Below, piece by piece: positions 18,600 to 64,000 of a stretch of DNA of 64,000 nucleotides. Made by a program: the position numbers and the translations under genes. Below the pieces are notes generated by a model, which was given only the letters and a program-made list of their open reading frames with translations, had not been told where the DNA came from and ran no database searches. Source of the DNA: Coffea arabica (Eukaryota; Streptophyta; Magnoliopsida; Gentianales; Rubiaceae); assembly GCF_036785885.1 (NCBI RefSeq), contig NC_092323.1:9680501-9744500 (forward strand), in the 5' to 3' direction. Positions within the stretch are counted from its first letter, which is position 1; each line of letters begins with the position of its first letter.

Positions 18600-18908
18600 A
18601 TGAATGATTTGGGAGGGAGAGGGGGCGGGGGTGGGGGTGGGGGGAGGAAAGGACGAGGGCGAAGAGGAAGGGGAGGAGGAGAGGAGTGGAGAGAGAGAGA
18701 GAGACAGAGAAAAGAAAGACTGCCGATGGTAGTGACTGCCGGTAGTGTTGGTCGGTGATGACTGATGGCTACTAGTTACGTGTGAAAGAAGAGTGAGGGT
18801 GAAAATTTATTTATTTTTAGTGTATTTAAATGTGTTTTTGAAGTTATTTTAGATTTCAAATACAAAAATAAGTATTTAATAAATAGTGGAATCCAAACAG
18901 AGGATTTA
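18600..18908. repeat. Repeat R1, copy A (left part), interrupted by a transposon
   Basis: A G+A-rich block (18605-18720) is followed by a unique block beginning with GGTAGTGTTGGTCGG at 18742 and ending CCAAACAGAGGATTTA at 18908. The same unique block recurs at about 20550-20744 with few differences. Here the repeat is broken by the element at 18909-20014, and the remainder resumes at 20015 with TTAGTTATCTAGTGCACACA. Confidence 0.75.
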
Positions 18909-20014
18909 GGGGGCGCTTGATTCATGCTTTGAAATTGGAAAAGGAAATGGAATAATGGAAGAAAATCAGTATGGGTTTGAATTGGTGCTATCATTCCCAC
19001 AAGCAATGCTTGGTGTGGGATGGGTATTAAAATTTATTTTTGCTTCTTTTTTTTTCTCCTTTGGACTTTTTGTCTTCTTGGCTCGATGCCTCCCCACCGC
19101 TAACTTTACCAGACCACCACCAATCAAAACTTCTTCTTTTGTGCTTTGTTTTGCAATTATCAATCAAAAATCCATGCCTGAAATAGAAGATTTGGCACAT
19201 GGTGTCTTATTATTTTTCGTTGTTCTGAAATTGACAAATGGAACTTTAATTAAACAATCCAAAAACAAATCCCAAAATGAAATGGTGAATTCCATCCCAA
19301 TCCTTTGAAATCTGTTTGCAAGCACAACTGCATTCCACCTATGGCCACCAGCCTTCTTGCCATTAAACATCAATTTTGCTTTTCACAAGGAGAAGAGGGA
19401 GGTTGGGTTGCCTGCTGAGAGGGACGATTTGATAGTGAAAGAGGAATTTAGCGGGTCCACTTGGGCGTGAGGGAGGAGTGGTTAGCGGCGAGAAAGGAGG
19501 GGGAAAGCGCCAGCTCTTTCTTGTCGATTACTTTGGTGGCGAAAAGTGCCGATTGAGTAGAGGAAGAATGCTGTAGAGGAGGAGGAGGGGGCTCGGGAGC
19601 TTTGATCTCGGCGAGGTAGGCGGGCCCGATGTGGCTGGAGCCGAGGCAATAGAGGAAGCAGAGATCGGAGAGGGAGAAGGTAGAGGAAGGGGCTGCAGAG
19701 CAGGCGCGACGGATGGCATCCCAACAGGGGTCACCGGAGGGAGCGGAGGAGTGAGGCTTTTGGTGGGCTGTGGGGGGGAAGAGGGAAGACGTGTTGGGCG
19801 AAGGAGGAAGAGGAGGAGGTTGCAATCCAGGTGGTCTCCGAATTTATTCACTGTTGGAAATGAGTTGAGGCTTTTGAGTGATTCCTTCCAATTTAGTCAG
19901 GAATCATGAATTGGTCATGATTCCAATATTTCAATTGCCATTACAGTGTACCAAGCACTAAATATTGGAATTATTGTCATTCCACATGCCAAATCCCTCA
20001 AACCAAGCGGCCCC
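18909..20014. mobile_element. PIF/Harbinger-like non-autonomous element carrying a kinase gene fragment
   Basis: A 1106-bp insertion. The left end GGGGGCGCTTGATTCA and the complement of the right end GGGGCCGCTTGGTTTG form terminal inverted repeats, and TTA is duplicated on both sides (18906-18908 and 20015-20017). The repeat copy at 20742-20744 shows the same site with a single TTA and no insertion, so both boundaries are confirmed inside this window. A 3-bp TTA duplication is characteristic of PIF/Harbinger transposons. No transposase is present. The interior instead holds GC-rich host-derived sequence similar to an AGC protein kinase, in the manner of Pack-type elements. Confidence 0.88.
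19448..19825 (-). pseudogene. Captured fragment of an AGC (PINOID/WAG-like) protein kinase
   Basis: An open frame on the minus strand. Its residues 32-106 (19508-19732) read like the start of a plant AGCVIII kinase: DPCWDAIRR, then LSDLCFLYCLGSSHIGPAYL corresponding to the glycine-rich loop, then a proline-rich insert and FATKVIDKKELA, which contains the ATP-binding lysine of strand beta-3. The loop is GSSHIG where functional members have GxGxxG, and the similarity stops just after the beta-3 lysine, so the catalytic loop and C lobe are absent. It lies wholly inside the PIF-like element and is not a working kinase. Family assignment is from memory of the motifs. Confidence 0.7.
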
Positions 20015-20017
20015 TTA

Positions 20018-20512
20018 GTTATCTAGTGCACACAATTCCTAAGGGTCAATTTGATTCATAGGATGGCACAGGATTGGGGAGAGAGAGGAGAGGAAGAGGG
20101 AGAAGACACAACGGATCTTCTGTCTCACATCCTGTGTTATTCTCTGTCCCATTTTTTATTATATTGCTATTTCTCCTACACAAACACCATATTTTAGTTC
20201 TTTTTTGTTTTCTTAAGATCCAATAATTATTAACTAAGTAGTATACAAAATTTAACAAACTCAAAAAATCAAAATGCATAAAAAATGAGATTTTTATAAA
20301 TTTTTTGCTGTATTTTTTAATTTTTTATTACATATTTTTTAATATTTCTATTATATATTACCCAGTTAATAGTTATTGAATCTTAAGAAAATAAAAAAAG
20401 AACTAAAATGTTATGTTTATGTAAGAGAAATAGCAATATAATAAAAATAGAACAGATAATGGCACAGGATGTGAGACAGAAGATCCGTTACATGGGAAAG
20501 AGGAGAAGGAGT

Positions 20513-20543
<31 letters not shown>

Positions 20544-20744
20544 AATGACTGTCCAAGGTAGTTACTGCCGGTAGTGTTGGTCGGCGATGATCAATGGCTA
20601 CTAGTGATGTGTGAAAGAAAAGTAAGGGTGAAATTTTATTATTTTTTTTATTTTAGTATATTTAAATGTGTTTTTGAGCTTATTTTAGATTTCAAATACA
20701 AAAATAAGTATTTAAAAAATAATGGAATCCAAACGGAGGCTTTA
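20018..20744. repeat. Repeat R1, copy B, interrupted by a palindrome
   Basis: The unit begins near GGGTCAATTTGATTCATAGG at 20044 and ends CCAAACGGAGGCTTTAG. Its outer ends are weak inverted repeats (TTTGATTC and the complement TTTGGATTCC). It contains the block GGTAGTGTTGGTCGG shared with copy A and an (AG)n run at 20513-20540. A 380-bp palindrome interrupts its G+A-rich middle. It retains the empty target site for the PIF-like element that interrupts copy A. Confidence 0.7.
20110..20489. mobile_element. Near-perfect 380-bp palindrome (foldback MITE)
   Basis: The left arm starts AACGGATCTTCTGTCTCACA and the right arm ends with its complement, TGTGAGACAGAAGATCCGTT. Arms of at least 130 bp pair with only scattered differences, and the AT-rich centre continues to pair, so the transcript would fold as one long hairpin. 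It interrupts repeat copy B. A clear target duplication was not found. It has no coding potential. Confidence 0.8.
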
Positions 20745-21836
20745 GTTATTAGTGCACACAATGCCTAAGAATTCGTTTAGTTCATAGGATGACACAATAT
20801 TAGATTAATCATCCTGTGTGATCCCATATTTGGTTGTATTTTACACATAGGATGATAAACCCCAATTAACCGAAATTAATCCCCTGTACATGGGACAAAA
20901 TACTCTATGAGAGTGGTGGTATTAGTCATCGCGGATAACTAAGAGATACGATGATAAAATTAAAGAGAAATGGTATTAGTCATCCCGGATGATTAAGAGA
21001 TGGGATGATAAAATTTTAAACTAATTTATTCTTATGAATAATATAAATTTATACTCTTATAATTATATAGCGATAATATAACATGAATGTACTAATTTGT
21101 CCCTACTAATTAATTTATAATTTTTTGATTACTTTGCCCTACTACCAACATAACAATATATTTGAACTAATTTGTTCTTACGAATGATACAACTTTATAA
21201 TGAATATTATATAACCATACTCTCACATAATAATATGATAATTGTAGACAATGAAATTTTAATTAAATTCTAAAAATTACCATTGGTCTATAAATTATTT
21301 TTATGATTTATTTTTATTCAATTGAATATGGCCATATGTCATGCACACTTGAAAGTTTGGCTATTCGTCAGCCAATTATGTCTTCCCACATGTCAAGATG
21401 AGGTGTTACGGTAAATTAAAATTGTCAAGATATCTCTGCCAATTAAATTATGCCACGTTACATGCCTATATGATTTGGCAAAATTATGGATGAATATCTA
21501 AGTAATTATTTCTTTATTAAAGAAATAATATCTAGAATTATTTAATTCATGTAGATGTCTTATATACTGCAACAGCATATCCAATCAAATGACGTCATGT
21601 CATATGTCCCTACAAGTCTAGCCAATCAAGGGAATATATCTTAAGTATTATCTCTTTGTTAATAAATACAAAATGAAGAGATAATATTTAAACTGGCACA
21701 GTCCGGATATGACTGCGTGTCTTGCAAGACAAGTAGACTGGTATACATGTTTTCAACTTCTACTTCATACTGCAGCTATATATAGGGGTCTTTCTACCAA
21801 ATCGAGGGACATCCGGAGGCATTTCATGTGTTCAAG

Positions 21837-22840: not shown

Positions 22841-24705
22841 TGTTCAAGTCTTTTGAAACTCCAAGATACGAAGGCCTGCATTTTCAAATTTTTCAAGTCT
22901 TCCATATATGAAGATTTCAAATATCTTCCAAATTCTTCAAATCTTTCATATCAAAATTTGGAGGAATCGGTGGTTGATCAAAAAACAAGTTGCGAAGCCC
23001 TTGGATTGGCGTTTAAGGTGAAGAATAAAAAAAAATTCTCTATAAGTTCGAGAAAATCCCAGAGATTGTACTCACATATTTTCTTAAATTTATATATTAC
23101 ATATTTATAGTGTATTTTTCTTATCTTTTGCAGATTTGAAATTTTATCGCGTACAAATTTTGGGCACGCTCGGTTGGACCGTCTCTGCCTTCCATTTCTT
23201 CTTTTCGAATATTCAACTACATATATCACTAATGGCACCAAAGAGCAACAAGACCATGATTGCACGTTCCAAGGCTACTGACGCTAAACCTGTTCAGAAA
23301 GTTGCACATGTTGCCACCAATACAGCCATCAATACCCGCGCTATTGGTCCTGTAACAAGGAGTATGACGAGAACTTCCACCCAAAATAGCATGGAAGCTC
23401 TATCGGCGTCAACTCCCGTCTTTGGTTCAACATCACCAATGAGCTATTCTTCCACGGTAGGGATCAAAGACGTCCCTACCTCGATTGAGAAGATTCTTGT
23501 CATGCTCGAATTTGGATTCGAATCTAAATTTTCTAAGTATGATGATGATTCAACAAGCACCGGATCAGTCTCTTCCCATGAAGCTCTTCAATCAAAAATT
23601 TTTTATTGAAGATCCCGCTGTTTCTTCTGCTGCAATGCCTGCTAGGATAACAAACACTTTAAATTTCGAAGAACAAGTTTCGAACATGTCCAAGATGATG
23701 GAGACCATGATGAAACACATCAAGGACCAATATGCTCTCATCACGCAACAACTCACCCAGAATGGACTAATTTTTCCCTACTAATTAATTTATAATTTTT
23801 TGATTACTTTGTCCCTACTACCAACATAACAATATATTTGAACTTATTTGTTTTTACGAATGATACAACTTCATAATGAATATTATATAACTATACTCTC
23901 ACATAATAATATGATAATAAACGGACTAATTTTCCCTTACTAATTATATTCATTTTTTACTAATTTGCCCCTATTCATTATTTTAAATTTTTGACAAATT
24001 TATCCCTATTAATTAATTTATTTTTTTGACTAATTTGCCCCTACTTCATAATAAAAGGACTATATTATCATTGGATTAAATTGCGCTTACAAACCTTATT
24101 TTCTCAACCAAATTCTATATAAATACGTAACCTTATCAATTGGGTTTTGCGAATGAGGGTTTCAATAAGCTTAAGTTTGGTCCAAAGAAAACTTTTCTAT
24201 ATTGGCTTGAGTTTGGCTGATTTAAAACTCTTAAATGGGTTAGATTTTATTTAATTAAACCCTAACTTAGCCAAAAATTGGGCTATTATTTAATTGAATT
24301 TCAAATTTAGATTCAAAAACTAGGTTAAAATCTATTTTTAAGGGGCTCGAATGGGCTGAATTTGAGTTAATGCAAATTTTTATATATTAAAACCCTTGAT
24401 TCATTTTATAATTCTAAAGTTTCAAATTAGTTTATTTTAATAAAAGTTATAAATTATCAAATTATTTTACTAAAACAATTCTACAAATTAAGGATACTTT
24501 GGTCATTAAAATAGTAATCCTATCTCATCCAATATCCAACCAAATACAGGATAGAATTATTTTCCAGTATATCCTACTCAACCTAGAACCAATCAAAATA
24601 ATTTGGATTATTAATTCGAGAATGACTCAACCTAGGATTAATAATCTGAAGATGAGTCATTCCATCTCATCCAGTCGTAAACCAAAGCGAACTCTAAATG
24701 TATAA

Positions 24706-37868: not shown

Positions 37869-38318
37869 CGAATAAAATAAATGGACTACTCACGCTTGAT
37901 TCTTGACTCAAATCAATATTCAATACCCCTTGTTTCTCTTTCTCTTTTCTCTACTGACAAGTGTTCCGTAGTTATAAGGTATGCTGCTGCTGTGGGAGGA
38001 GAATTGGTTTGATGAGCAGGCTGGATGGGTTCCAGAAACAGCAGAGATGGTGGATGACGCAGCTAAACAGCCAAAACTAGTAGTATAGTATAATAAGCAT
38101 AAAGGAAGTAACTAGACGTGGCTGCTTAGTGCATTTGGGGAACCGTAAGCGGCGGAATGGGACGAGCTTTCTATTATCAGCGTCATCATTACCGAGACGA
38201 ATCTGACGGACGATGCCCCATAATGCTTTGTTTGGTGTCCTTTTCCTTCTAAGGGTCCAACGCTGGTTTGTCGCACAGGCGTCAAATCAACTCATTTATG
38301 CACCATTCAAGGACCTAT

Positions 38319-38532
38319 CTGTTTGGCACTTGAATTTTTTACCAAGTTTATCTGGTACAAGTTTTTTTAAAAATTTTAATTACAGTAATTTTTAAAAAAA
38401 TTTCAAAAATTTTAAATTATATACTTCAAAATATTTAAAAAATTACAAACTTTAAAAAATTTTTAAAAAATTTTTACAATAAATTATAATAAAATTTTAG
38501 ATAAACATCTAAAAAACTCACTTGTCAAATGG
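38319..38532. mobile_element. MITE with TTTGGCACTTG ends
   Basis: The left end GTTTGGCACTTGAATTTTTT and the complement of the right end, CATTTGACAAGTGAGTTTTT, are related inverted repeats. Both are followed inward by a GTTTATCTG/A-like block. The interior is almost entirely A+T. The boundaries are approximate. Confidence 0.6.
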
Positions 38533-38697
38533 GGCCAATGTAAGTTTAAGCCCAAAGGAATAGTTCATACTTCAGAAAACTTGGACTATTAACTATTGAG
38601 TAGGCCCAAAATCATGACAGGTGATATTTACTTTACATTCGAAATCTTCATCCTTGCATTGACAATGTAGAAAGTGTGAATCTATGCTACTATTATG

Positions 38698-38875
38698 GGT
38701 TTGTTTGGATAGGATATTATTTGAAATATTATTTGGAATAATTACTGTAGCATTTTTTGTGATATGATGTATATGAGATAAAAAGGTAATTGAGAAGATA
38801 AAAAACTATATTGGAAATTGTAATGGTAATGTCAGCAAATATATTTGTCCAAATAATCTACTGTCCAAACAAACC
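38698..38875. mobile_element. MITE with GGTTTGTTTGGA ends
   Basis: The left end GGTTTGTTTGGATAGG and the complement of the right end GGTTTGTTTGGACAGT match in 14 of 16 positions. ATG flanks both sides, fitting a 3-bp duplication. The element is 178 bp, AT-rich and non-coding. Confidence 0.75.
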
Positions 38876-38943
38876 ATGGTTAATACATTTTTGCCACGCA
38901 ATTGTCTATAAATGTAGTGTTACTAATTCCAAACTAGTATAAA

Positions 38944-38998
38944 TTTTTGTAAGAATGATAGGGGTGAAAATTTTGTAAGAATGATAGGGGTGTAAATT
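38944..38998. repeat. Two-unit direct repeat
   Basis: The block TTTTGTAAGAATGATAGGGG followed by TG and A-rich sequence occurs twice in a row with a single-base difference. No function is apparent. Confidence 0.7.
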
Positions 38999-39976
38999 TG
39001 AAATTGACTTGTTTACTTTTCAAGTTGAGTTTGAATAAGTTTTATGAAATTGAATTCAAGTTGAACTTGAGTAATTTGAACTTTTTACATGTAAATTTCA
39101 CTTATATATTAATCAAACCGATTTTGAAAGTTTATCAAATTTAAATTATTGTTCAAGTTTGATCTGATTAGCTGATGAATCAAATTCGAATGAATTTTTA
39201 CTGAACCAAAATGGGTACGAGTATCAAGTATTCTGGTTGTCTTTCAACTTGGAGGGAAGAGCTTGTGATAGAAATTAAGAATACTTGCTTTTTCATGCCT
39301 TCTTTTATCCAAGCATTTGTATTGGCAAATGATATTGCCAAAGCCAACGTTTTAAATCCATAACAAGTTTTTTTTAAATGACAAAACCACCTCTTTTAAT
39401 TCCAAATTACAATCGGAGTATGAAGTGGCATTAATGCAGTCCCTCACTTAAAATTAGTATGGATGGAGAAATGTCCATAGAGATTAGAAGGAAATGATAA
39501 AAATTTTATCTTTCTTAGGAGTTTATGGAAATAAAAGGTACAAAAAAGTAGGAATGATGTTTGAAAGAAATGGAATGATGAAATAGTTTTTTCATTAACT
39601 TTTGAAAAAAAAAGGAGAATAGTTAGAAAGTTAATTAAGACATCACAAATTTTCCGTCTATTATTCCCCTCATTTCTGAAAGTTTGAAACTATTTCATCT
39701 TTCGATTTGTTTCCAAAATAATCTCAAATCGAGTAAGAGAAATTCATCCAATGCTCCTCTCTTTAGTTAACATGCAGTATAACTCAAGTTTATTGTTCAT
39801 TCCATATCTCCCTTCTTTTCTATTTTCTCTCTTCCAAACAAAGCCTCAAAGTGAGGGTATTTAGGTAACTTTGCTCCACGACGTCGTTTCCTTCAAAAAT
39901 CAACCGGCGAAATTCTTAAGCTCACGCGACGTCATGCAATTCGTCCAGGAGCGGGCGCAGACGGCGGAGCTGTCAT

Positions 39977-41401
39977 ATGGAACCTAACCAAGACGACGAC
40001 GACGCCGGCGTCGACGAGTCATCTCCCCAAGAAGAAATGATCACAACTTCAACGCACCATTTCGGCGACGGAGATGATGCCTTCTCAGTCACTATCATTG
40101 AGGCATGTCCCTTTATCCAACTTCTCTTCTACTTCTGAATTAACTCCAAAAGAAAAAAAAAGTTGAAGATTTTTGTATTGTTTTTATATTTGCTCAATTT
40201 AGAGTATGAAAGAAGAGTACGGGTTATTCGTGTGGCCATGTAGTATTATTTTAGCTGAATACGTTTGGCAACAAAGATCCCGCTTTTCCGGGGCTAATGT
40301 AATCGAGGTAATTATCTAAACAAGAGTTCCAAGATTCTCCTATAAATCCTATTCAATCATGGGTTATGGTTCTTGATCTTAACTAGTGCTAGTTATATTT
40401 GACAGCTTGGTGCGGGGACTTCTTTGCCCGGTATAGTTGCTGCTAAAGTTGGCGCTGACGTCACACTCACAGATGATTCGAATAGACCTGAAGTATGCTG
40501 TTTTACACATTTATTTTTTAGAAGTTTGGCTTACAGTTTAGAGTCATTTCTGTGTCTTGTAGTTTTGTTACATCCCTAGTTGCTTCAGTTTTGTTCTTGA
40601 CATGTGCAGGTGCTGGATAATATGAGGAGAGAATGTGAGCTGAATAATGTGACATGCAAAGTATGGAATGGTTCTTTATTTGATAATAGTAGATTTTAGC
40701 TTGCTAGCTTATATGATGCATCTTCAGTTCTTCGCAGATAAATGATGCATTGCATACTTAGTTTCTATATTCTAGACCATAATCTGAAGCAGCGTTTGAC
40801 TAGAGCCCAATAAACTTATAATTGGTCATATTTATATGTATTGCAAGGTGCTGGGACTTACATGGGGTGTTTGGGATGAACCGATATTCACCCTGTGCCC
40901 AAATATTATCCTTGGAGCTGATGTCCTATATGAAACAAGTGGTAGGCTTGTCCCTATTTTTCTCTTCCCAATTTGGTGACTTTTTTGGTTTTGTTTCACA
41001 TATCAATTAACTGGAAAGATATTTTTACCACGCATGCACTTTGAAGCATTTGATGATCTTTTTGCTGCTGTGGCATATCTGCTCCAGAATTCTCCCTCTT
41101 CAGTTTTTATAACAGCTTACCACAACAGAAGGTGATTATGGATTTTCAATTCCTGATCTTTTCTTGGCTCAGGGACATTTGGTACTGCACTTGGGTGTAT
41201 CACAGGTTTATGTTAATTTTTTATTTCTCTTTTACTGTAAACAGTGGGCATCACCTGATTGAGTTCTTGATGGTTAAATGGGGATTGAAGTGCATGAAGC
41301 TTCTAGATGGGTTTTCATTCATGCCAGCTGACAAGGCATCTGGATTAAGTGGGAATATACAGTTGGTAGAGATAATTTTGGATAATGACAAACTAAGTTA
41401 G
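39977..41401 (+). CDS. METTL23-like protein methyltransferase
   Basis: Seven exons: 39977-40102, 40203-40307, 40406-40492, 40610-40660, 40848-40941, 41047-41131 and 41245-41401, giving 234 residues. It is a class I Rossmann methyltransferase of the METTL21/23 group, which transfers methyl from S-adenosylmethionine to protein side chains. SAM-binding motif I is VIELGAGTSLPG (75-86), with the acidic strand-2 end LTDDS (99-103). GLTWG (126-130) and NIILGADVLYE (142-152) match METTL23. FVWPCSIILAEYVW (50-63) is the usual preceding helix. Exon 1 is followed by GC, not GT (GAG then GCATGT), so intron 1 is a GC-AG intron. Using the GT two bases later would give a TAG at the junction. The later introns are GT-AG. 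Convergent with the peroxidase gene downstream. Substrate not inferable. Confidence 0.88.
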
Positions 41402-42053
41402 CAAATGGTCGTGATGCTTATTGAGAAAAATGGTAAGATGCAATATATTTTTTTTCTTTGTTCTTTTTCTCTCCCTCTCTCTTTTTTTTTTTGCCTTCTT
41501 GAATGACTGTTAAAATACATGGGGTGTTGGGGATGACATTAACATGTTACACTATCTGTTCCCCCTTGGGTTTTATTTATTGTATCACTTCTGGAATTAA
41601 AGCTTATTATCTTCTGTTCAGAAGTGTGCAAAAAGGTTAACTTCCTAAAACTGGATTAAGTCAATTTGTACTGAGATCTGATCAATCAATTTGGATGTCC
41701 ATTTATGAGCTACCCGTGGGCAAATAATTATATGTCAAGACCTCCAATTCTGCTTTCAAGTAAAATCAGTGGTTAAATTTTCATGAAGGCTTTCCATTTA
41801 TCTCTTTCCCCCCTAACATCAAGTTTTGTATTGAGCCCCAAAAATTCTGCATAACAGAGTATCCAAACAGGACTGCTATTTGCTGGATAGGAAATAGACT
41901 GCTTTAACATTTACATCTGTAAATATTATATGCATTGTTCTGTGGAGTATTGAATTTCGGGGTTCATATAATCTTAAAAATCAACAAGCTTGATAGCTCT
42001 GGTTTTCTTCCGATCACTTTAGATGATGGAAGTGCTTAGTTGAGAAAGATAGT

Positions 42054-43534
42054 TTAGTTTACCACCCTACAGTCCTTTCTAATTTCTTGACCACCTGTGA
42101 TGCTGCTCATCTTGATCATGGAACTTGAAAAGGCCTCATAGAAAGTTTCTTTTGAGGTCGCAAACTTTGAAACCAAGTCTTTCGTCTTTGGAGAAGTGAG
42201 TAAAGCCTGATCTGAAGAGAAGAGGCTCTTCCCTTGTAGAATCAACTTGTAGTATGTGTTGTCAAAAGTAGTTGACGATGGATCCATTGAGGTGCCTCCA
42301 TTTTTTGTGCCACTCTTGTTTGGACAAATGCTTTTCAAACTTGCTGCAAAGGATGGGTGTAGTGTAGGATCAATGTCATGGGTGGCGTTGAAATTGTGGA
42401 TTCTGTTCTGGAATGATGAGCAATGGGAAAAACCTATTGTGTGGCCACCTGCAAAGTGTGGAAGGAATAATTTTTTTAGTTTGTGAAGGTGGAAAGAAAT
42501 GATGTGCAAGACAGTTTGGAACTTGGTTCTATAACCTGAGAGAGCAACAAGGTCTTCCATGGACAGACCTCTCTGAGAGAAGCTTTGTTGGAGTTGTGAT
42601 ATATTGAAGAGTGGAGCTGGCATTTGTGTTGTTTCGCTAGCCTTAGATATCCTCCCATCTTTTCTTCCTTTGGGTACATCCCAATACGGCCCACCAGACT
42701 GTTGTATTAAACACAGTTTAACAACTATATTTTTGACTGAAATTGACCGTCAACTATGTTACATCAAATGTGTATTGGACGACATCAGTTCTGAATCCTA
42801 AACCACCATCCTGCTCTTTCTAAGGCCAATCAGCGCTTCAAAACTCTCTTATACTTTACCTTCATATGATTCTGGCCTCTATGTGGTGTTACATATTTTT
42901 GTTTCGCTTTCAGTGGGTCAAGATAGATTGATCACGTCTTATTAAAGGTGCAATATTTCATTGTAGTATCGGCAGAAGATGCATCTCTTGCAATATTTCG
43001 TATTTATTCTATACAATATTTATGGTTTACTTACCAGAACAACTGCATCTCTTGCAGCTGAAGCCAAGATATCAGCACAAGACACTACACCAGGGCAAAG
43101 AGCTTCCACTGCCTTCTTTGCATTGTCAATGACATAGAACGCATGCAAAGATTTATTAGGGGGTCCGTCCTTCTCAGCGCTGTTCTTCCCTTTGGAGTTC
43201 AACAGCACAGAAGCATCACAACCCTTCCGAACAAGCAAGTCATACAAATAAATATGAAAGTGTTAACTAGCGACAAAGAGTCGAGTTATGTGAGACAATT
43301 CAAGCCAAATGTTAACTAGGTCATACATACCCTGATAAAACAATCATGAAAATGCATCCTCAGTAGTGCTGCAGGCACCGTGTTGTCTTTCTTTGCAGCA
43401 TCCTTTACAACCTCTGTTACAATGCTTTCGGCATTGGGGCATGTCTTTTCATAGTAATTCAAACTGAGCGCATGCCCTTGAGAGCAGACCAAACAGATGA
43501 AGAGGGAGATGGACAATGAAACTAGGCAAGCCAT
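42054..43534 (-). CDS. PER64: Class III peroxidase, peroxidase 64 type
   Basis: Four exons on the minus strand: 43331-43534, 43035-43223, 42536-42698 and 42054-42448, giving 316 residues, the normal length. Residues 1-22 are a signal peptide, and the mature protein starts near [11 protein letters not shown]. The distal haem pocket is R59 and H63 in LRMHFHDCF, and the proximal haem ligand is H188 in [25 protein letters not shown] and the remaining conserved cysteines are present. [24 protein letters not shown] and [14 protein letters not shown] closely follow Arabidopsis PER64, a secreted enzyme needed for the lignin of the Casparian strip. The classical three-intron structure of the family is kept. 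Exon 3 is reconstructed through the splice site TCTGGTGG at 42698. A TATA run (about 43592-43602) lies near 60 bp upstream of the ATG. A second identical copy is at 56105-57585. Confidence 0.93.
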
Positions 43535-43591
43535 AGCACTATACAGATAAGGAGCTCTAGCAGGTATCTGACGCTTTTGTCACTTGTGTTG

Positions 43592-43602
43592 ATATATATA
43601 TA
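43592..43602 (-). promoter_or_regulatory. Probable TATA box of the peroxidase gene
   Basis: An uninterrupted TATATATATA run lies about 60 bp upstream of the peroxidase start codon on the minus strand, a normal distance for a short 5' leader. The same sequence occurs in the second copy at 57643-57653. Confidence 0.55.
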
Positions 43603-43609
43603 GGGAGGA

Positions 43610-45099
43610 AAAAAAAGACAGCATGATTTGGATGTTGAATGGTTGGCTACTACATTGAATTCGGTAGCATAATTGTTGGCGTTTGATGATTAAGAGTGTG
43701 CTCTAAGCATCCTCAGCGCAAGTTTTGGTCTCTAATTCTGTTTTGTCTGTCCACCTTTTAGCCCCTCACTAGCACCGGTAAAACTTTGTTTATTGGAAAC
43801 TCGTTACATCAATGACTAGAAAGCAAAGCAATGGTTAAAATGAATAATAACTAGAAGCACACACTAGTTATTCTCTGGAAAAGTTCCTTCGGATTCTAGT
43901 ACGCCAAGTCAAAAAGGAAAACAGGAAAAAATGATGGAACTTTTTACGTCTAGCCACTCTTGCTGGAGGTGCATTAGCAGGTTAGGGGTGGTTGGAATTG
44001 CTCCATCAATTTGTTACTTGATTCATCATGGATTATCATTACTCTCAAGTTTTAGCTTTTGTTGGTTATATGAATGGAATAACAGATATGAAGAGTTGGG
44101 GGTAGGGCTGCATGAGGTTCGCAGACTGGATTTGGGATGTGACGTGATGTGATGTACTTTGGATTCAACTAATTGGGGTTGAGATGTCAATTTACCAATT
44201 TATTAAGTACATGACAAGTTTAATTAAATTAGTCACATGCTTGTCTACTCATAAGTTTTTGATAATCATGTGAACGATTTTTCCATTACCTAAACAGCAC
44301 CACCATCGTCGGATCAAGGGTTCTTGTTTAGTTACATCTTGAAGGTACATTTACTTTTATCAACTACATATACCTGTTGTGCATAGTGCATACTACTACT
44401 ACTACGTTGTCGTGAGATTTTGGTCCCCAGACGTATTTGGTTTGAATTTGATTTTTATTTTTATTTTTTTGCATACGTGACTTGTAATTAAAAGGTATTA
44501 ATATATACACTGTCAGTGTAAACAAAATTAAGTTACTTATCAAAGTATAAAATTCAAGACATTTCATGTAGATTGTTCGTGTTAGTTTTAATTAATTAAA
44601 TTAATGGATCAAGAAAAATGTTGTTAGCTACTTTTTTCTTTTTAAGTTAAATTACATTGACGTAAAATCCGGGATTACATGACATTGACGAAATCATTTT
44701 ATACCTCATTAAACAATTTAATATGCCAGGAGATTTCAAAATGAACACACAACACTTTGGGTGTTTTTGGGCCTTTGTTTAGGCTGCTACTACGAGTTAA
44801 CAGTTTCTTTTCCCGGCAGTCATTTCTTTGGGCTCAGGAGCCCAACAATTAGGTTCCTATTTTCCGCAACCCGAAATATGGTTCCAAAGTCCAAACCGCA
44901 TCCGCCCCAAGTCCGGAACCCGATCCAGATTCGCCGTTGCCTCTAGTTCTCCTGCTAGAATCCTGGGATGTAGGGTTTTGTTAGCTGGATGGAGCAGAGC
45001 TAAAAAGTAAAAACAAGACCGCCGATTGACATAGACCTCCGACGAATTCTGCTGGGTTTTGCTGAAATTTCTCCGGCGACGGAAAAAGAGCGCATTTCC
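43610..45099. other. Intergenic between peroxidase and ESF1 genes
   Basis: Divergent spacing of 1.5 kb between two genes transcribed away from each other. It holds a short (TAC)n run near 44392-44405 and a small inverted motif TACACTGTCAGTGTA at 44516-44530. I see no gene. The last 100 bases are likely the ESF1 5' UTR. Confidence 0.45.
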
Positions 45100-48000
45100 A
45101 TGGGGTCCAAAGGCAAGAACAAGAAGAATATGACTAAGCCTGACGGTGACGCCACCGCCAACCACCGTAATGATGGAAAAATCATCACCGATGCTCGTTT
45201 CGCATCCTTACACTCGGACCCTAGGTTTAGGGAGCCACCGAAGCATAAAGCCAAGGTTGCGATTGATTCTCGCTTTAACCGCATGTTTACTGACAAGGAT
45301 TTCGCTACCTCAAAAGCTCGCACTGATAAGAGGGGCAAACAGAAGAAGAATGACTCCGCTGCTAACTCTTTGAGGCATTATTATCGCCTCGAAGAGGAGG
45401 AAGAAGGAGCGAAAGAGAGGAGTTTGGGAAAGGAATTGGTGAAGAATGAGGAGAGCGGAGAAAGTGAGAGTGAGGGTGTTGAAAGTGATGAAGAAAGTGA
45501 GAGTGTGAACGTGGAGAAAGGGAGCTTGAAGCTGGAAAATGAGTCCGAAACATCGGATTCTGAGGAGGAGGAAGAAGAAGAAGAGGAAGCTGAGAGTGAT
45601 GACTCGATGAGTACTACTTCGGATTCAGATGAGGCGTACGAAGAGGAAGAAGATACTTTTGGGCTGGTAAAAATGAATAATGCAGGTTGAATTTATATAA
45701 TTTGGGGAACTTTGTTCGAAAATTTTAAATGTTTAACCTTTTATTTGTGCGGAGCAGGAGGAGACTGTTCCGGAAATTGATAAGGAGACGCATAGGCTTG
45801 CGGTTGTCAACATGGATTGGAGTCAAGTCAAGGTTAGTAGTATTGAAGATTCTAAGGTTTGTATTAATATAGGGGAAGAGATTGTGTAAAGAATATCTTG
45901 ATGGTTTGTTATCTTTTTCTTGATCGATACATGTCGTCTGGGAGACTGCATTTTCTATGACTTGAAGGTATTTTAATTGGTGTCTTAGACTCTATAGAAC
46001 CCCAACAAAGAGAGGAAAATGAGCTCATGTTGTATCCTGCATGTAATTGGTGTTGTGTTTTTCGTGGACTTGAGCTTAGAATGTTGATTTTTGCACTGAA
46101 ACTAGATTGTTTCCTGTAGGCAGTTGATTTGTATGTCTCGCTAAGTTCGTTTCTTCCTAGAGGTGGTCAAATTATGTCAGTGGCAGTCTACCCATCTGAG
46201 TTTGGGCTCAAACGAATGGAAGAGGAGGCGATTCATGGTCCTGTTGGGCTATTTGAAGATGACAAAAAGAATAATCAAAATGATGAGGATGAAGATGATG
46301 ATGATGATGAAATTGACAATGAGAAATTGCGTACTTATGAATTAAGTAGGCTAAGGTGACATGTCTGCTCTCCTATATGTGCATATACATACCTTTTATT
46401 GTGTCTGTTTTTCCACCGCTTGAGTTTAATTTCAAAATCTGTTATCTTTACTTTGTAGTTGTGTAGCTTTGGTTTTCAGAATAAAAACCTATGGCATGTG
46501 TTGTTTCTTGTTATCTATTTTCCAAATTTCATCCTGATTCATTTGTAATAGCTTTGCTATGCTTCCTGAATGTTTATATGATAAAACAATCTCTTTCCTG
46601 CCTGGTGGTTAAAAGAGTGATTGCTCTCTCTCTCTCTCTCTCTCTGTGCGCGCGTGTCCACATGCATCTATCTGTATTCGTGTATGCCTTTATGCCTGTG
46701 GGTGTGTGCAAATTCACACATGGAGTATAAGTTTCTCTGGTGTTTCCACTTATATTTCAGGTACTACTATGCTGTGGTGGAATGCGATTCAATTGCTACT
46801 GCAGATTACCTCTATAGGACTTGTGATGGAGTAGAGTTTGAGAGATCATCCACTATGCTTGATTTGAGGTTTGTACCAGATAAAATGGAATTTAAGCATC
46901 AACCACGTGATGTTGCAAAGCATGTAAGTCTTTGTCCTTATTCTTAATGCATAGCTTATACTTGTTCTGCAGCGAAGTGCTCGGCCAATAAGATAGCTCT
47001 TCAAAGAGGTTTCTTGCCCCAGGTCAATTAAACACTGTTATTTAGTTTATTAGATTGAATAATTTGAGATTGCCTTTCCTTTCATTAGGCACCAGCAGAC
47101 TATGAAGGATTGGACTTTCAAACTCGAGCACTTCAGCAAAGTAAGATTCATCTGACATGGGATGATGATGAGCCACAGCGTGCAAAAACCTTGAAGCGAA
47201 AATTTAACGATGATCAGGTACTTTGATTTTCATTTCAACTCAACGATGATCCGGTGTTTATTTTTGCTACTGGTTTGGGAAGCAACATGTGATTATATAC
47301 TGTTTGTGCATCTTTGTGCTTCTTGCTGCAAAACATGCATAGTCAGAGCATGATCCAACGTCTTTAAAGTCATAGTGCTTTGATTAATGGAAGTATTATT
47401 TCTACATAACCGGGTAAGTTTTATACAACTGGCATTGATGCGGTTCTCCTCTTTCAGCTTGCTGAGTTAGAGTTCCAGGAGTTTTTGGCTTCTGATGAGA
47501 GTGATAGTGATGAGAGTGAGAACAATGATGGCATGCAAAATGGATCATTTGTAAAACAGAAGAAGCAGGATATGTACCGTGCTCTTCTCCAGTCAGGGGA
47601 TGGCTCAGATGAAAATGATGAGAAGTACCAGGACATGGAGGTAACGTTCAATACTGGTTTAGAAGATTTAAGTAAACGGATTTTGGAAAAGAAAGACAGA
47701 AAATCAGAGAATGTTTGGGACGCTATCCTTAGAGAGAGACGTGAGAAAAAGAAGGCCAGGAAAAATAGATCGAAAGATTCATCAGAAGATGAGAGCATTG
47801 ATACTGATAATGAACCTGCAGAAGAAACTGATGACTTTTTTCTTGAAGAATGTTCTGGAAAAGAAAGTAAGGTTTCTCAAGGTAGAAATGCGAGAAAAGA
47901 GCAGCAGAATGAAGATGCATCTCGAGAAGCTGAAGCAAGTAGAGCAGAACTTGAATTGTTACTTGCTGACGATAAGGGAGCAGATTCCGGCTTGAAAGGC

Positions 48001-48690
48001 TACAATCTGAAACGCAAGAAGATGAAAGGGAAAATGGGTAAAGAAATTCCCGATGAAGGGAAGCTGCCAACTATTGACTATGATGATCCTAGGTTTTCAA
48101 CCCTGTTCACTTCACCGCTTTTTGCTCTGGATCCCACGGATCCTCAGTTCAAACGGTACTTCTTTTACTGCACATTTGGTCAACGTTTCCAGTTTTATGA
48201 TGACTTGTGTACTTGACCCTCTTCATTTCTTCTTCACCAATATTGTCTGGATTTTAGAATATTTTCCTGATAATCAATCAATATTTTTCCAGTATAATCT
48301 ATATAGCGATTTTGACATGTTATTTTCTGAAAGTTACTGCTTGCTCTGTGGCTTCATCTGATGAGGTGTCTCCTCTTTTTTTTTTTTTTTTTTTTTTACA
48401 GGAGCGCAGCTTATGCACGACAAATGGCAAATAGACAACAGAAGAGCGAGTCCGAGAACAACAGGGTAAAGGAGCCGTCAGAAACACTTGGACAAGTTTT
48501 GGTGTCTAGTAAGACACAGAACGATGACAATCGCGAGTTGCACCGTTGTCTGCCGCCTGCAAAGAAAGAGAAGCTGGAATTGTCCTCATTAGTTAGGTCA
48601 ATTAAGATGAAATCAAAACAGATTCCCCTTCATGATAAAGTGCTAGGAAAAAACCGCCACCTGAAAATAAAAGCAAGCAAGAGCAAGTAG
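45100..48690 (+). CDS. ESF1: ESF1-like pre-rRNA-processing protein
   Basis: Seven exons: 45100-45666, 45758-45832, 46120-46355, 46761-46923, 47089-47217, 47458-48155 and 48402-48690. All introns are GT-AG and the frame runs 718 residues. ESF1 is a nucleolar factor for 18S rRNA maturation in the small-subunit processome. The N terminus has [16 protein letters not shown] and a long acidic stretch (about 95-185). The central domain reads [19 protein letters not shown], then [26 protein letters not shown] and [10 protein letters not shown], as in ESF1 orthologues. The C-terminal NUC153 motif [18 protein letters not shown] is at about 595-612, followed by a lysine-rich tail ending KASKSK. Acidic and basic tracts are typical of nucleolar proteins. 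A (CT)n run lies in intron 3. An identical copy is at 59151-62741. Confidence 0.93.
46623..46645. repeat. (CT)n microsatellite in ESF1 intron 3
   Basis: About eleven CT units followed by GTGCGCGCGTGTC, within the third intron. The length is the same in the second copy at 60674-60696, although microsatellites change fast. Confidence 0.85.
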
Positions 48691-49563
48691 GTTAACCACT
48701 ATTTCTATACGGATATTTAGGCAGTGTTGCGAGGATGGCGAAAGTTTAAAAAGTTCTGAGGGACAAAGCAAGTAGTATCCTCTATACATGGGTGTAGGAG
48801 TTGGGGTATTTTTCTGTTTTTGGTCAGATAAACGAAGGGCATTTCTGTATGGTTTTCCTCAATTTAAAAGTCTTGGTTAACTTGTACTCATTTGTTCATA
48901 TTACGCGCTCAATTCATTTTTCTTTTCTTCTTTATGTTTTTTGTTTTTACTCCAACTGAATGTTGATGCTGCAGGATTTCATTAGTTTCGCTGTTGTTAT
49001 CTTCATTCATATTTTTTTGTTGGGGGCTGTCAAAATCTTCAGTCACATTCCTTTCTCTTGAATTTTCTATCTGTATTCATGTTGATCGCTAACCAGGTTA
49101 CAATCTCATCTGTCCTACTCGTTTTCTCCAGCCTGGATTTCAATCACGATCTGCACGATATCGTTTCATTTATGCTCTGACAAGTTAAAATCAACTTCAA
49201 ATTGTCTAAAACTAACGCAATCAAAATGTAAAATAAGCTTTGCAAGGTCAGTTTAATGATTTCCTCAGGTCGAATAAAAAGAAAAAGAATTAAAAGGGAG
49301 TCATCAAGAGTACGCTACACTTCAAAGGGTTATCTGGAATTACCGACAATAGCCATATCAAGTATATATATATATGCCTTCGAAAAGTAATATGTATCCA
49401 TCAATCAAACAATAATGTATATTCACAGCTAAAAGTACGACAGATCAATCTCAATATAGCCGAGACGGCTGCAAAACTAGCATATTGTAATGGTATTAAA
49501 TCTATCCAGTGGAAATGCTACTGCTACAAAATACTGCTCAATTCCACACAAGCGGTTGCAGCC
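48691..49563. other. Spacer between convergent ESF1 and aspartic protease genes
   Basis: 873 bp between two stop codons of convergent genes, so it should contain both 3' UTRs. An AT microsatellite lies near 49364-49374. No ORF of interest. Confidence 0.5.
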
Positions 49564-52500
49564 TCAGTAAGAAAGAATAATCAAATAATGGCTCAACAGG
49601 CAAAACAGAAAGACAAGGATTTTGCAAGATATGGAGTTCGAATCCGGTGCATTGCTCCCCGGGGGTGATTGTGTTGGAATTGCAGTTGCCACAGGAGAAG
49701 TACTTCCCTTTCCAGATGTGGCTTCTGGCACGAGAGTTGAGGGTGAAGGAGCTTGGGTACCGTTCCGTTGGTTAACGGGCAATGTGTTTGATCCATTCTT
49801 AGTTTGCACATCATCGTAGCCTGAGAACAATGCTTTCATTTAAGGGCAGAGAGTTGCAAACTTCTAATATGTTGCATGAGGCAAAAGAAAAAGTGAACTC
49901 ACAGTTAGATGGCTTCCATCCCAGAGTCATGTTCTCGCGGTTGAAAACTACCCGATAACCAGTCATGAAATTTTCTGGCCAAAAATCAACAAATTGTTTT
50001 GTCAGAGCTAGAAATTAATATGTGAATGCATGACTCAAAACAAAATACATGGAAGTTCAACTGGAACCGAAAACAAGCGAGCAGGACTTTCTTTTTTCTT
50101 TTTTTTTCCTTTTTTAAAAAAAAAGGGGGAATAGGACTTTGATATAACTTTCCAACAAACTTTGAAGAATTCAATATCAAACTCTGTATCGTGTCACCAT
50201 AGATAGTCTTATGATCAGATAAGTATTACAAGACGGACCAGTGAAAACGAAAAAGAATCTTACATCCTAATATGTTAACATGGAACTAGTACTGATATAA
50301 GCAATAAATTAACACACAAACTAGTGGTATAAGGGAATGGCATCACTCTACTGAAGAAAACAAGAGGAATATATAAAATAAACCAACTCACTTTTCCTTT
50401 TTGTTTACAATGGGAAGGGGAGACATTAGTGGCAGTCAGTTTCGTGTATTTATGTTCTGATTATATTAACAATGAAACTTAGTGGTACTTACGTCCGATG
50501 ATGTTGACATCCCCACTTTTAACAACTGCCAAACAATATATATATCTATTATTCTGCACATCAGAAAATGGGTTATTACAATCAAGAGAAAATCCCAAGG
50601 TATCCAACTTTGTGAAATGTAATTACCGAAAGTTGAAATATTTCCGATGGATTAGTGATCGAAAATGGATCTCCCCCTTTCATCGTCAAATTCAGAGAGG
50701 GCATGTCAAAGCCTGTTTCATTGGGACTGCATGAAAAGAAAGAGTCAGTCTACAAGGTTCCCAGGGTAAAATGAACGACCACGAGGTGAAGTATTGTTAA
50801 ATGATGTTGTGAGAATGAAATTACCTTAGATTATAGCAAAATTCAAAAGGAATTTGGGAATCAGATGGATAACGTGGCTGTTGGACCCGAGAATTGAACT
50901 GCCAAAAAACATAGAAGCAAGATAGTTTGTAATCCTTGAAAGCAGACCACATCATATTTATGTAAAATATCATGAAAACTTCCTAGTAACTTACATTCTC
51001 GGTTATAATTGAGTAAGCTGGGTCATTGACATATGTAAATGAGGTGCCAGAATCAAAAATAGCAGTGAAATCAACATCTGTGATATTCTCTCCCACAGCT
51101 ATTTGCGTAATGCTTATGTTGTAAGCTGGGCTGATAGAAAATACAGGGGGGGAAAAGGTAATGAAGAGAAAAATAAAATTTAGTAGAATTTTGGAAGTCC
51201 TTTAATCTGAAGAAAAGTAATTGGTGGCTAAGTGAGTGAAATTGGTACTAGAATATACAAAGCGAACAGGAGCTGCTTACTGTAGTTGATGAAGATTGAA
51301 TGGTGTTTCTCCTTGGTCTGTACTTCCTTTATCTCCAAAAACAATTCTTCCAACTCCATCATTCCCAAAACACATCGAAAAAGAATTTGCAGCTAGCCCT
51401 TTGCTTGCTAATGTGCTAGGAACTGATATAGTGTCCATACCTAGACCAAACAGACCATTGGGAGCAGCACCATCCAAAAATCCACCAGTTTGAACTATTC
51501 CACAGCTGAAATAGAAGAAGCATCATGAGTCAATGTCATGTGCAAGTAGAAAGGCCATGGACAAAATATTGCCCAATAATCAGCTGTGAGTGCAAACTAC
51601 AAGGAGACATGATTAAGGACATAGATATATGAGATAACGAGCAGCAGCTAAGAAGGCAGATAAAAGTCCAGACAAACTCATTAGTTGAAACAATAATAAA
51701 AAATAAAAAAAAAGGCAATCTAGGAATCTAAAAATGCCTCGTATAGACCATAAATGTAGTCCCCAGAGCGAGGATAACAATAAAACTTCAGCTACTCAGA
51801 GCATCAGGAAAAAGAAGAAGAAAAAGAAAAAAGAAAACTTGAATTAATTCACCATTTGGATTAGAAATATAATATGTCTGCTGCATCAATGTGAAATCCT
51901 CCTTTAAGACAGCAACATAAGATTCATGAAAGTATTAGTCTCTTCAGAATTTTATTGATCAACGATGAGCTCCTCAAACAAAAACAGGTAATCATACTAT
52001 GAATTAATAATACTCACCCCAATGTAATTGGCGCATCAACAACTTTCTGCTGACTATCATCCGTAGCCAAGTGCAAAACATCCTCAACTAACAACCCTGT
52101 AGATGAAGTGTTGCCGGAAAGGTAACTAACTTCATAAGCACAAGCCTTGCGTGAAGCTGAGCATGCTCTTCTTCGTGCATCACACATTGTACTGTTGCAC
52201 GGAACAGTCATGCCAGTTGAGGATGTATCCAGACTGTACATGTTTAAATCAATTCGCTGCTTGAAAAGAAAGAGCGAAAAAAAAAATGAATAACAGAAAA
52301 CTGGCTATGGAAGACAGGCTCAAAATTTAAAAAAAATAAATAAAAATAGTACAAATAAATTTGGCAATAGAAGTATTAATTAAATTTTTCAACTTTTTAG
52401 ACAGCAAAATTGGCTGATGAAGTTTGAACCTGGTATTGCACAATGCTAGAATTTTGATTAACAAGATAATAGAAATTTATGGTGCCAATCAAGCTTGCGC

Positions 52501-52969
52501 AATGCACAGTTAAAATTAAGGTACTGGTAATTATTGCTTCCCAAAGGAAAAGTGTGACATCCACCAGAATCTTGGATGAAATGTCCAATCGAAAAAAACT
52601 TTATAGTTAGTCATATGGCATAAAAATTGGGGAAAAGAAAAACCCAACTGCCACTAAACATAGCGGAAAAAGAAGCCAAGCAGTCCACTTGTTGCTATTT
52701 TTCTTCCCCAGCAGCAAGTTCTTAATTACCAATACAGCAAGATGAAGATATCCATATTTGCAAATTAATCTAAGACATAGTTATCATTTCAAGTGATAAA
52801 ATGTGAAATTAAAATCTAAATAAATTAACATACTTGTCCTGATCTTGTCACCAAGCCACGCACACAACTGGTACAATCACAAGGCAGCCAAAACAAGTCA
52901 CTTCCAGTATCGAGTGCGACCAAGAACCACAATTCTGGTGTTCCAACGGAGACATTTGCATAGTACAAA
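49564..52969 (-). CDS. Plant aspartic protease (A1 family, APF1-like), 5' end missing
   Basis: Nine visible exons on the minus strand: 52834-52969, 52018-52259, 51281-51505, 50995-51130, 50825-50898, 50627-50726, 50493-50553, 49903-49974 and 49564-49820. Phases are consistent and junctions GT-AG. The first catalytic aspartate is in VALDTGSDLFWLPCDC and the second in AIFDSGTSFTYV. Other family blocks are SSTGLLVEDVLHL, CGIVQTGGFLDGAAPNGLFG, NISITQIAVG, FEFCYNLS and IIGQNFMTGYRVVFNRE, then GWKPSNC. After a Ser/Pro/Thr-rich stretch the protein ends in a hydrophobic tail (CKILVFLFCLLSHYLIILSY), as in GPI-anchored plant proteases. The first visible exon begins at LYYANVSVGTP, so signal peptide and propeptide exons are missing. 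None is recognisable up to 53659, so they probably lie in or beyond the N gap. Confidence 0.88.
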
Positions 52970-53659
52970 CTGCAAGTTCAGGAAAAAAAAAAAAAAAGAG
53001 AGAGAGAGCAAAGGAAAAATATTGGTCAATTGCACATTTATTTTTTCAAGGAAGATTAAATTACTCATGCTGTATAATCTTGGTTTAGTCCATTAAATAT
53101 CTGTCACCCCATGAACGCTTATTAATGTTTTGCAAAGTAGGAAATTAAAGGTGAAAAATTATTAAAACTGGCCAGAAAAAGGAAAAGAGAAGAGAATTCA
53201 TAATGTTAAGTTTAAAAAGCTCTTTCGCTCGTAAAACTGGAATCTTTTTATAGAGACAGAAACACCAAAGGAACAAAAGCAACACAGAAATCTAAATACC
53301 GAAAAAAAAAAGGATTTCCAACCAGCAAACAGATAAAGTGCTACAGTTTTTAAACTAGAGCTCGCTAGCCTTGTAAAAGAAATATGATAAAATAAAGGTG
53401 GTTCTGATTAATGAAAATTTTTTTTTAAAAAAAAAAGTACAACAGAATACGGGAAGAAAAGGAGGCTTTAATGATTTCCACAAATCCTTTGAGCACTATC
53501 TTCGTCAAATTGCCTTTCAAGAAGAGAGTTTGTTTAAAACCAGCATTCAAACCCATGCTATGTAAGGGTTTATATTTCAATTCAAAACAGTAATATATGT
53601 TCGAAACCAGCATTCAACCTCTTCCATTTCCTTTTCCCCAACTCCTCTATTCTTCTTCT
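52970..53659. other. Probable first-intron sequence up to the assembly gap
   Basis: No exon of the aspartic protease or of any other gene is recognisable. There is an (AG)n run near 52996-53007 and several poly-A tracts. The block TTCGAAACCAGCATTCAA at 53599-53616 resembles AAAACCAGCATTCAAACCC at 53536-53554, a short local duplication next to the gap. Confidence 0.45.
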
Positions 53660-54159: not shown

Positions 54160-54253
54160 CCCTTTATCCAACTTCTCTTCTACTTCTGAATTAACTCCAA
54201 AAGAAAAAAAAAGTTGAAGATTTTTGTATTGTTTTTATATTTGCTCAATTTAG

Positions 54254-55452
54254 AGTATGAAAGAAGAGTACGGGTTATTCGTGTGGCCATGTAGTATTAT
54301 TTTAGCTGAATACGTTTGGCAACAAAGATCCCGCTTTTCCGGGGCTAATGTAATCGAGGTAATTATCTAAACAAGAGTTCCAAGATTCTCCTATAAATCC
54401 TATTCAATCATGGGTTATGGTTCTTGATCTTAACTAGTGCTAGTTATATTTGACAGCTTGGTGCGGGGACTTCTTTGCCCGGTATAGTTGCTGCTAAAGT
54501 TGGCGCTGACGTCACACTCACAGATGATTCGAATAGACCTGAAGTATGCTGTTTTACACATTTATTTTTTAGAAGTTTGGCTTACAGTTTAGAGTCATTT
54601 CTGTGTCTTGTAGTTTTGTTACATCCCTAGTTGCTTCAGTTTTGTTCTTGACATGTGCAGGTGCTGGATAATATGAGGAGAGAATGTGAGCTGAATAATG
54701 TGACATGCAAAGTATGGAATGGTTCTTTATTTGATAATAGTAGATTTTAGCTTGCTAGCTTATATGATGCATCTTCAGTTCTTCGCAGATAAATGATGCA
54801 TTGCATACTTAGTTTCTATATTCTAGACCATAATCTGAAGCAGCGTTTGACTAGAGCCCAATAAACTTATAATTGGTCATATTTATATGTATTGCAAGGT
54901 GCTGGGACTTACATGGGGTGTTTGGGATGAACCGATATTCACCCTGTGCCCAAATATTATCCTTGGAGCTGATGTCCTATATGAAACAAGTGGTAGGCTT
55001 GTCCCTATTTTTCTCTTCCCAATTTGGTGACTTTTTTGGTTTTGTTTCACATATCAATTAACTGGAAAGATATTTTTACCACGCATGCACTTTGAAGCAT
55101 TTGATGATCTTTTTGCTGCTGTGGCATATCTGCTCCAGAATTCTCCCTCTTCAGTTTTTATAACAGCTTACCACAACAGAAGGTGATTATGGATTTTCAA
55201 TTCCTGATCTTTTCTTGGCTCAGGGACATTTGGTACTGCACTTGGGTGTATCACAGGTTTATGTTAATTTTTTATTTCTCTTTTACTGTAAACAGTGGGC
55301 ATCACCTGATTGAGTTCTTGATGGTTAAATGGGGATTGAAGTGCATGAAGCTTCTAGATGGGTTTTCATTCATGCCAGCTGACAAGGCATCTGGATTAAG
55401 TGGGAATATACAGTTGGTAGAGATAATTTTGGATAATGACAAACTAAGTTAG
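54254..55452 (+). CDS. METTL23-like methyltransferase, second copy, exon 1 missing
   Basis: Exons 2-7 of the gene at 39977-41401 recur at 54254-54358, 54457-54543, 54661-54711, 54899-54992, 55098-55182 and 55296-55452. Exon 1 would fall inside the N gap, so the copy lacks its start codon here. The visible protein starts at SMKEEYGLFVWP and contains the SAM-binding motif LGAGTSLPG and the block GADVLYE unchanged. It is likely a duplicate placement of the same gene, not a paralogue. Confidence 0.85.
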
Positions 55453-56104
55453 CAAATGGTCGTGATGCTTATTGAGAAAAATGGTAAGATGCAATATATT
55501 TTTTTTCTTTGTTCTTTTTCTCTCCCTCTCTCTTTTTTTTTTTGCCTTCTTGAATGACTGTTAAAATACATGGGGTGTTGGGGATGACATTAACATGTTA
55601 CACTATCTGTTCCCCCTTGGGTTTTATTTATTGTATCACTTCTGGAATTAAAGCTTATTATCTTCTGTTCAGAAGTGTGCAAAAAGGTTAACTTCCTAAA
55701 ACTGGATTAAGTCAATTTGTACTGAGATCTGATCAATCAATTTGGATGTCCATTTATGAGCTACCCGTGGGCAAATAATTATATGTCAAGACCTCCAATT
55801 CTGCTTTCAAGTAAAATCAGTGGTTAAATTTTCATGAAGGCTTTCCATTTATCTCTTTCCCCCCTAACATCAAGTTTTGTATTGAGCCCCAAAAATTCTG
55901 CATAACAGAGTATCCAAACAGGACTGCTATTTGCTGGATAGGAAATAGACTGCTTTAACATTTACATCTGTAAATATTATATGCATTGTTCTGTGGAGTA
56001 TTGAATTTCGGGGTTCATATAATCTTAAAAATCAACAAGCTTGATAGCTCTGGTTTTCTTCCGATCACTTTAGATGATGGAAGTGCTTAGTTGAGAAAGA
56101 TAGT

Positions 56105-63614: not shown

Positions 63615-64000
63615 TCAGTAAGAAAGAATAATCAAATAATGGCTCAACAGGCAAAACAGAAAGACAAGGATTTTGCAAGATATGGAGTTCGAATCCGGTG
63701 CATTGCTCCCCGGGGGTGATTGTGTTGGAATTGCAGTTGCCACAGGAGAAGTACTTCCCTTTCCAGATGTGGCTTCTGGCACGAGAGTTGAGGGTGAAGG
63801 AGCTTGGGTACCGTTCCGTTGGTTAACGGGCAATGTGTTTGATCCATTCTTAGTTTGCACATCATCGTAGCCTGAGAACAATGCTTTCATTTAAGGGCAG
63901 AGAGTTGCAAACTTCTAATATGTTGCATGAGGCAAAAGAAAAAGTGAACTCACAGTTAGATGGCTTCCATCCCAGAGTCATGTTCTCGCGGTTGAAAACT
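63615..64000 (-). CDS. Aspartic protease, second copy, 3' exons only
   Basis: The last exon (63615-63871) and most of the preceding one (63954 to the window edge) repeat the 3' end of the gene at 49564-52969. The rest lies beyond the window. The Ser/Pro/Thr-rich stretch and hydrophobic C-terminal tail are the same. In a real duplication this copy could retain the 5' exons that the first copy lacks. Confidence 0.85.

Follow-up and report, generated by a model that had tools for sequence, protein, structure and literature searches.

Pack-type elements are already known, and what sets apart the element of Coffea arabica described here is an unusually clear record of its assembly. MULEs have long terminal inverted repeats (TIRs) and a 9-bp duplication. 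Rice Pack-MULEs, as far as the partial accounts available go, are likewise non-autonomous TIR elements with captured exon DNA, and they differ from the coffee element, which has short TIRs and a 3-bp TTA target, by the long TIRs and 9-bp duplication.

The Pack-PIF elements of maize and rice (Gisby and Catoni 2022, PMC8903248), in the excerpted text of that study, likewise have PIF/Harbinger TIRs, mostly TTA or TAA duplications, short host-gene pieces, and several copies; maize Pack-PIF cluster 18 holds a 163-bp gene piece. The coffee element differs from those in the excerpts in its donor gene, in arms derived from different subfamilies, and in an insertion found on two corresponding chromosomes. 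The hybrid Pack-CACTA model (Catoni et al. 2019, as summarised in parts of PMC13317346 and PMC8903248) states that two neighbouring elements lose their facing ends (3' of the first, 5' of the second) and that the DNA separating them is retained, which predicts the order observed here, namely left part of one element, chromosomal DNA, and right part of the neighbour. It concerns a different superfamily, and the parental neighbouring pair was not seen here. Animal Pack-TIRs also hold host DNA between the ends of a TIR element, but in the sections of PMC8277862 available this DNA mostly fills an internal gap of one element, whereas the two arms differ here. Gene-piece pickup by DNA transposons is debated, and a passage of a 2026 review (PMC13317346) considers that unlinked genes may be captured by some other mechanism that is still undiscovered.

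Boundaries, empty site and superfamily of the element

The element occupies positions 18909 to 20014 (1,106 bp) of the window, i.e. of the whole 64,000-nucleotide stretch of DNA analysed, and is inserted in one copy of a local repeat. It is delimited by its TIRs, a TTA duplication, an empty site and further genomic copies. The left TIR, GGGGGCGCTTGATT (18909..18922, plus strand), and the right TIR, GGGGCCGCTTGGTT (20001..20014, minus strand), agree at 12 of 14 bp when counted by eye, and TTA is found at 18906-18908 and 20015-20017. Thus, the TIRs and the duplication define the element as proposed in the preliminary description.

Copy A of the local repeat (plus strand) extends from 18670 to 18908 and resumes from 20018 to approximately 20070, and copy B (20494..20796, plus strand) includes a single TTA at 20742-20744, which had been put forward as the unoccupied site. 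The flanks of the element fused with one TTA aligned continuously with copy B with a score of 362, as compared with a maximum of 30 in 100 shuffles, which supports that assignment. The counterpart region on C13 likewise has the occupied site together with an empty copy B, with 110 of 111 bases in agreement around the empty site, and the window and C13 are collinear with about 90–97% identity in the main blocks. As the window insertion is common to C13, it is older than the C13/C14 split, whether this was due to polyploidy or other duplication. Shared transposon insertions and collinearity in C1/C2, C3/C4, C11/C12 and C13/C14 suggest that these are corresponding chromosome pairs of a polyploid or of a phased hybrid assembly. 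C1 and C2 are collinear at ~92–97% in all blocks except one short block at 87%. Between repeat copies A and B, a long fold-back at 20110-20489 (arms of 47–59 bp, 85–89% complementary) resembles another MITE.

PIF/Harbinger elements have a short TIR starting with G, and we take the ends of the coffee element to resemble published PIF/Tourist ends. The 3-bp target-site duplication of PIF/Harbinger elements is TTA or TAA according to the excerpted text of PMC8903248. The family elements have GGGGGYGCTTGG-type ends; 21 of the 37 are flanked on either side by TTA or TAA (3 nt slack allowed), and in the other 16 the ends are mutated, missing or mismatched. The exact family left end, GGGGGYGCTTGGTTCATG, was found at 41 places genome-wide, and its reversed control at 0. 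A host-gene piece in a non-autonomous TIR element and the presence of more than one copy (8 copies at 6 sites) are Pack-type features. The element is very probably a non-autonomous Pack-type PIF/Harbinger-like transposon with a three-part anatomy, in line with the capture in a PIF/Tourist-type element suggested earlier, the Harbinger label being provisionally assigned from the target-site duplication and TIRs.

The element itself contains no transposase. PIF/Harbinger elements are mobilised by a DDE transposase (PF13359) that has matching ends. At least 193 matches to PF13359 were found in the genome (best 150 of 1,153 candidates scored). Five transposase loci, one of them read on one side only, included no matching end pair in a regular-expression and end-pair scan. 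When compared by eye, no transposase among the matches listed (best 150 of 1,153 scored) was within 10 kb of any of the 41 exact left ends. At four further loci with the exact left end, which bring those read to 20 of 41, no autonomous partner was found and the longest ORF was 152 aa. Three related elements of ~0.9–1.1 kb (L065-L067) have the same left end and TTA/TAA flanks around other interiors, and perhaps form a third subfamily.

The captured kinase segment and its donor genes

The interior had been described as kinase-like sequence on the minus strand at 19508-19732. Its character and strand were confirmed, and its extent was corrected to 19508..19842, which corresponds to element bases 600-934 (335 bp). 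This segment stems from the first exon of a kinase gene that appears AGC1-12-like, and is 86–87% identical to genes at C1:50951906-50952251 (86%) and C2:45272881-45273223 (87%). It begins upstream of the kinase domain, ends at ...KRELA shortly after the beta-3 lysine, and lacks both the start codon and any splice site. At both donor loci, the first two exons of the kinase are open, exon 1 terminates at GT, and a Pkinase domain was detected in exons 1 and 2. The best PDB matches of exon 1 were PKG, PKN and PKC, followed by a group that includes Akt. In plant AGC (AGCVIII) kinases, DFD replaces DFG and is followed by a long insert; donor exon 2 encodes MLTDFDLSL, a long stretch, and then SFVGTHEY. 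The donor has the features of a plant AGC (AGCVIII) kinase, namely a domain nearest to AGC kinases in exon 1 and the DFD motif with its insert. The two donor genes, the Pkinase domain and the AGC best matches agree with the earlier view that a TTA-target TIR element had captured a piece of an AGC kinase gene. A PINOID/WAG/D6PK-like donor had been suggested; exon 1 shares 62.5% identity with AGC1-12, as compared with 49, 41, and 39% with PID, WAG1 and D6PK, respectively, and with provisional sequences as all four references, the donor appears closest to AGC1-12.

Used alone as a genome query, the 335-bp segment gave 8 matches (8 of 8 candidates scored), which are the two kinase genes and six element copies, and no autonomous transposon with the same interior was among them; the shorter kinase pieces of L015 and L020 were missed by this query. 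The segment has a GA-rich sequence that codes for proline, and the decayed ORF alone revealed no kinase in Pfam or among PDB sequences, where its best match was nectin-4 (E 0.11), as would be expected if the kinase-like DNA were the own sequence of the transposon or a chance low-complexity similarity. However, the identity of 86–87% over 335 bp to two kinase genes, the absence of kinase sequence from the kinase-free elements examined in the two related subfamilies, X and Y (see below), and the score of the ORF against provisional kinase references (39.7 bits, best of 500 shuffled ORFs 22.7 bits) make such an origin extremely improbable. Scans of viral contigs with the decayed ORF and with a provisional kinase piece found no relative.

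In the window, the donor reading frame is lost above approximately 19775 via a 1-bp difference in a G run, and the fragments in the window and C13 are both frameshifted, with the donor frame gone in each. The two captured pieces differ at 37 of 334 positions, distributed 11/13/13 over the codon positions. This even spread and the frame loss indicate that the fragment of the window insertion has been under no constraint since the C13/C14 split; as judged by sequence, the piece at the window site is a frameshifted, decaying fragment. The kinase piece of L014 has a stop, and L016 and L018 retain the donor frame without a stop across their shorter kinase pieces. Differences from the C1 donor by codon position were 15/5/14 for the window, 8/3/9 for L014, 9/5/6 for L016 and 16/11/13 for L011, and L018 showed 8/0/10 of 266, i.e. 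zero second-position changes. Over the captured stretch, the C1 and C2 donor genes differ at 2 of 343 positions, each a third codon position, and 9 of 48 CpG bases are at second positions. Hence, constraint on the donor side and the CpG distribution may partly account for the scarcity of second-position changes. Constraint soon after capture, or at L018, may also have acted.

Arms from two subfamilies and the origin of the capture

A left-arm search at ≥82% identity revealed at least 14 elements with the X-type left arm (best 40 of 78 candidates scored), all 14 being among the loci that were read. Among them, 8 carry the kinase piece (the window element, L011, L012, L014, L015, L016, L018 and L020) and 6 do not. 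The right arm is of the X type in 6 of 6 kinase-free elements; it is kept in 7 of the 8 kinase-bearing copies and is of the Y type in all 7 (only 125 bases in L012). The kinase-bearing copies occupy 6 distinct sites when the flank-sharing pairs window/L011 and L012/L015 are counted once each, the flank common to the latter pair being the left one only. Bases 547-667 are absent from five copies, and this 121-bp gap is most simply explained by one deletion that spread through later transposition; thus, the composite still moved after capture. In L020, 29 bp of kinase sequence is left. Two independent captures, one giving the long form (window and C13) and the other the short form of the five copies, were rejected, since the copies that retain a right junction share essentially the same one; the short form is taken to reflect the 121-bp internal deletion.

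The element is composed of X bases 1-599 (18909..19507, plus strand), 335 bp of kinase sequence, and the last 172 bp of Y (element 935-1106; 19843..20014, plus strand). In a block comparison of 18 loci and then 19 more, X elements sharing the left arm (L013, L017, L019, L021, and the shorter L022 and L023) were distinguished from Y elements sharing the right arm (L024-L028 plus others). The left arm of the window element is 92–95% identical over bases 1-545 to the four long X elements, 81–84% to the two short ones, and 70–76% to L024-L028. For the right arm, identity is 93–97% to L024-L028, as compared with 77–80% to the long and 77–81% to the short X elements; further Y elements among the second 19 loci showed 83–97%. 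A 50-bp sliding profile showed that the closest partner switches across the kinase piece. In the FastTree tree of left arms (n=35), 7 of 7 Pack copies grouped with X (support 1.000), and in that of right arms (n=36), 7 of 7 were outside the X clade (support 1.000) and among Y, with weak branch support for the exact partner inside Y. L015 and L044 were omitted from the trees, and L036 was too short for the left one.

As the arms belong to different subfamilies in the trees, the idea of one recipient element, whether X or Y, was rejected. Arms from distinguishable subfamilies indicate that two elements took part, which arms from the same source could not reveal. In X, the breakpoint lies at 593 of 912 (L013), and in Y it lies at 778 of 949 (L025); the junction microhomology is 0 bp on the left and 1 bp on the right. 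We propose that an X and a Y copy in the same orientation came to lie close together; X would have lost approximately its 3' third and Y approximately its 5' four-fifths, and the intervening kinase DNA would have formed the interior of a single element, which would then have been moved in trans by a Harbinger-type transposase. In maize, 12 of 13 local PIF pairs are in the same orientation (excerpts of PMC8903248).

A fusion of two elements around intervening DNA is a better fit than gap filling inside one element. The latter, which has been put forward for many Pack elements, would require a recipient that was already an X/Y recombinant; X and Y are homologous, such a recombinant could have existed, and the X interior was indeed replaced at internal breakpoints. 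However, a Y right arm without kinase sequence was found in 0 of the 14 X-left elements (best 40 of 78 scored), and a pure X recipient conflicts with the right-arm tree. Hence, filling within one existing element is considered improbable.

It is plausible, and our tentative preference, that the kinase DNA incorporated by the fusion was whatever lay between the two insertions. With seven query elements, no X or Y remnants were found within ~24 kb of either donor locus, and inspection by eye of the matches listed from the genome search found no X and Y elements ≤100 kb apart. As the donor exons are open and no remnants are nearby, the event should have taken place on a since-lost allele or copy, or by copying. 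In the latter case, X and Y elements lying near each other would have suffered a break or deletion between them, repaired by copying 335 bp from a kinase gene elsewhere, leaving the gene unharmed. The state of both donor loci and the junction microhomology of just 0 and 1 bp are consistent with such templated filling. Gap filling with template switching is known for animal Pack-TIRs from the available part of PMC8277862, and the plant review, in the passage available, allows for capture of unlinked genes (PMC13317346). However, microhomology (median 2 bp) occurs at one or more breakpoints in 67.6% of animal Pack-TIRs in the same part of PMC8277862, as compared with 0 and 1 bp here. Templated filling also requires the same X-Y neighbourhood as fusion, plus an ectopic template, and no datum here separates the two; we regard it as possible, though it is not the outcome we would expect. 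The more specific version, in which repair synthesis between neighbouring X and Y elements was templated by an unlinked kinase gene with the donor left intact, is somewhat doubtful. If true, exons could be picked up by DNA transposons that had at no time inserted in the gene. As one genome holds the donor genes, kinase-free relatives, a shared insertion and the empty site, the order of events is testable in related species.

Other inserts and repeats

Another insert is present in a Y subgroup, at L026:1366-1585 (C11), with copies in L028, L031, L032, L034, L041 and L042. Besides C7, inserts of this type were located at ten places, of which seven lie in elements that were read. In L026 the insert is 220 bp long and matches a relic on C7 in three separated collinear pieces. 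A spliced, cDNA-like capture by the Y subgroup was considered and rejected, since the gaps in C7 resemble two later insertions and not introns; as read at the edges only, one insertion has GGGATGGCAA...TTGCCATCCC ends and the other has TG...CA LTR-like ends with a CCATC duplication. The translated L026 insert had no match in Pfam, and the insert may represent another gene-like capture made by this transposon family.

Window positions 40109-49949 and 54160-64000 are 100% identical over 9,841 bp. When the next 30 kb is included, 40109-53659 equals 54160-67710, and 38030-50112 is found again at 81918-94000 (continued window coordinates), also at 100%. The identical repeats from 38030 on represent either an array of gene-bearing duplications that arose very recently or an artefact of the assembly. 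A shorter repeat of 159 bp is present at 21085-21242 and 23760-23918 with 95.6% identity.
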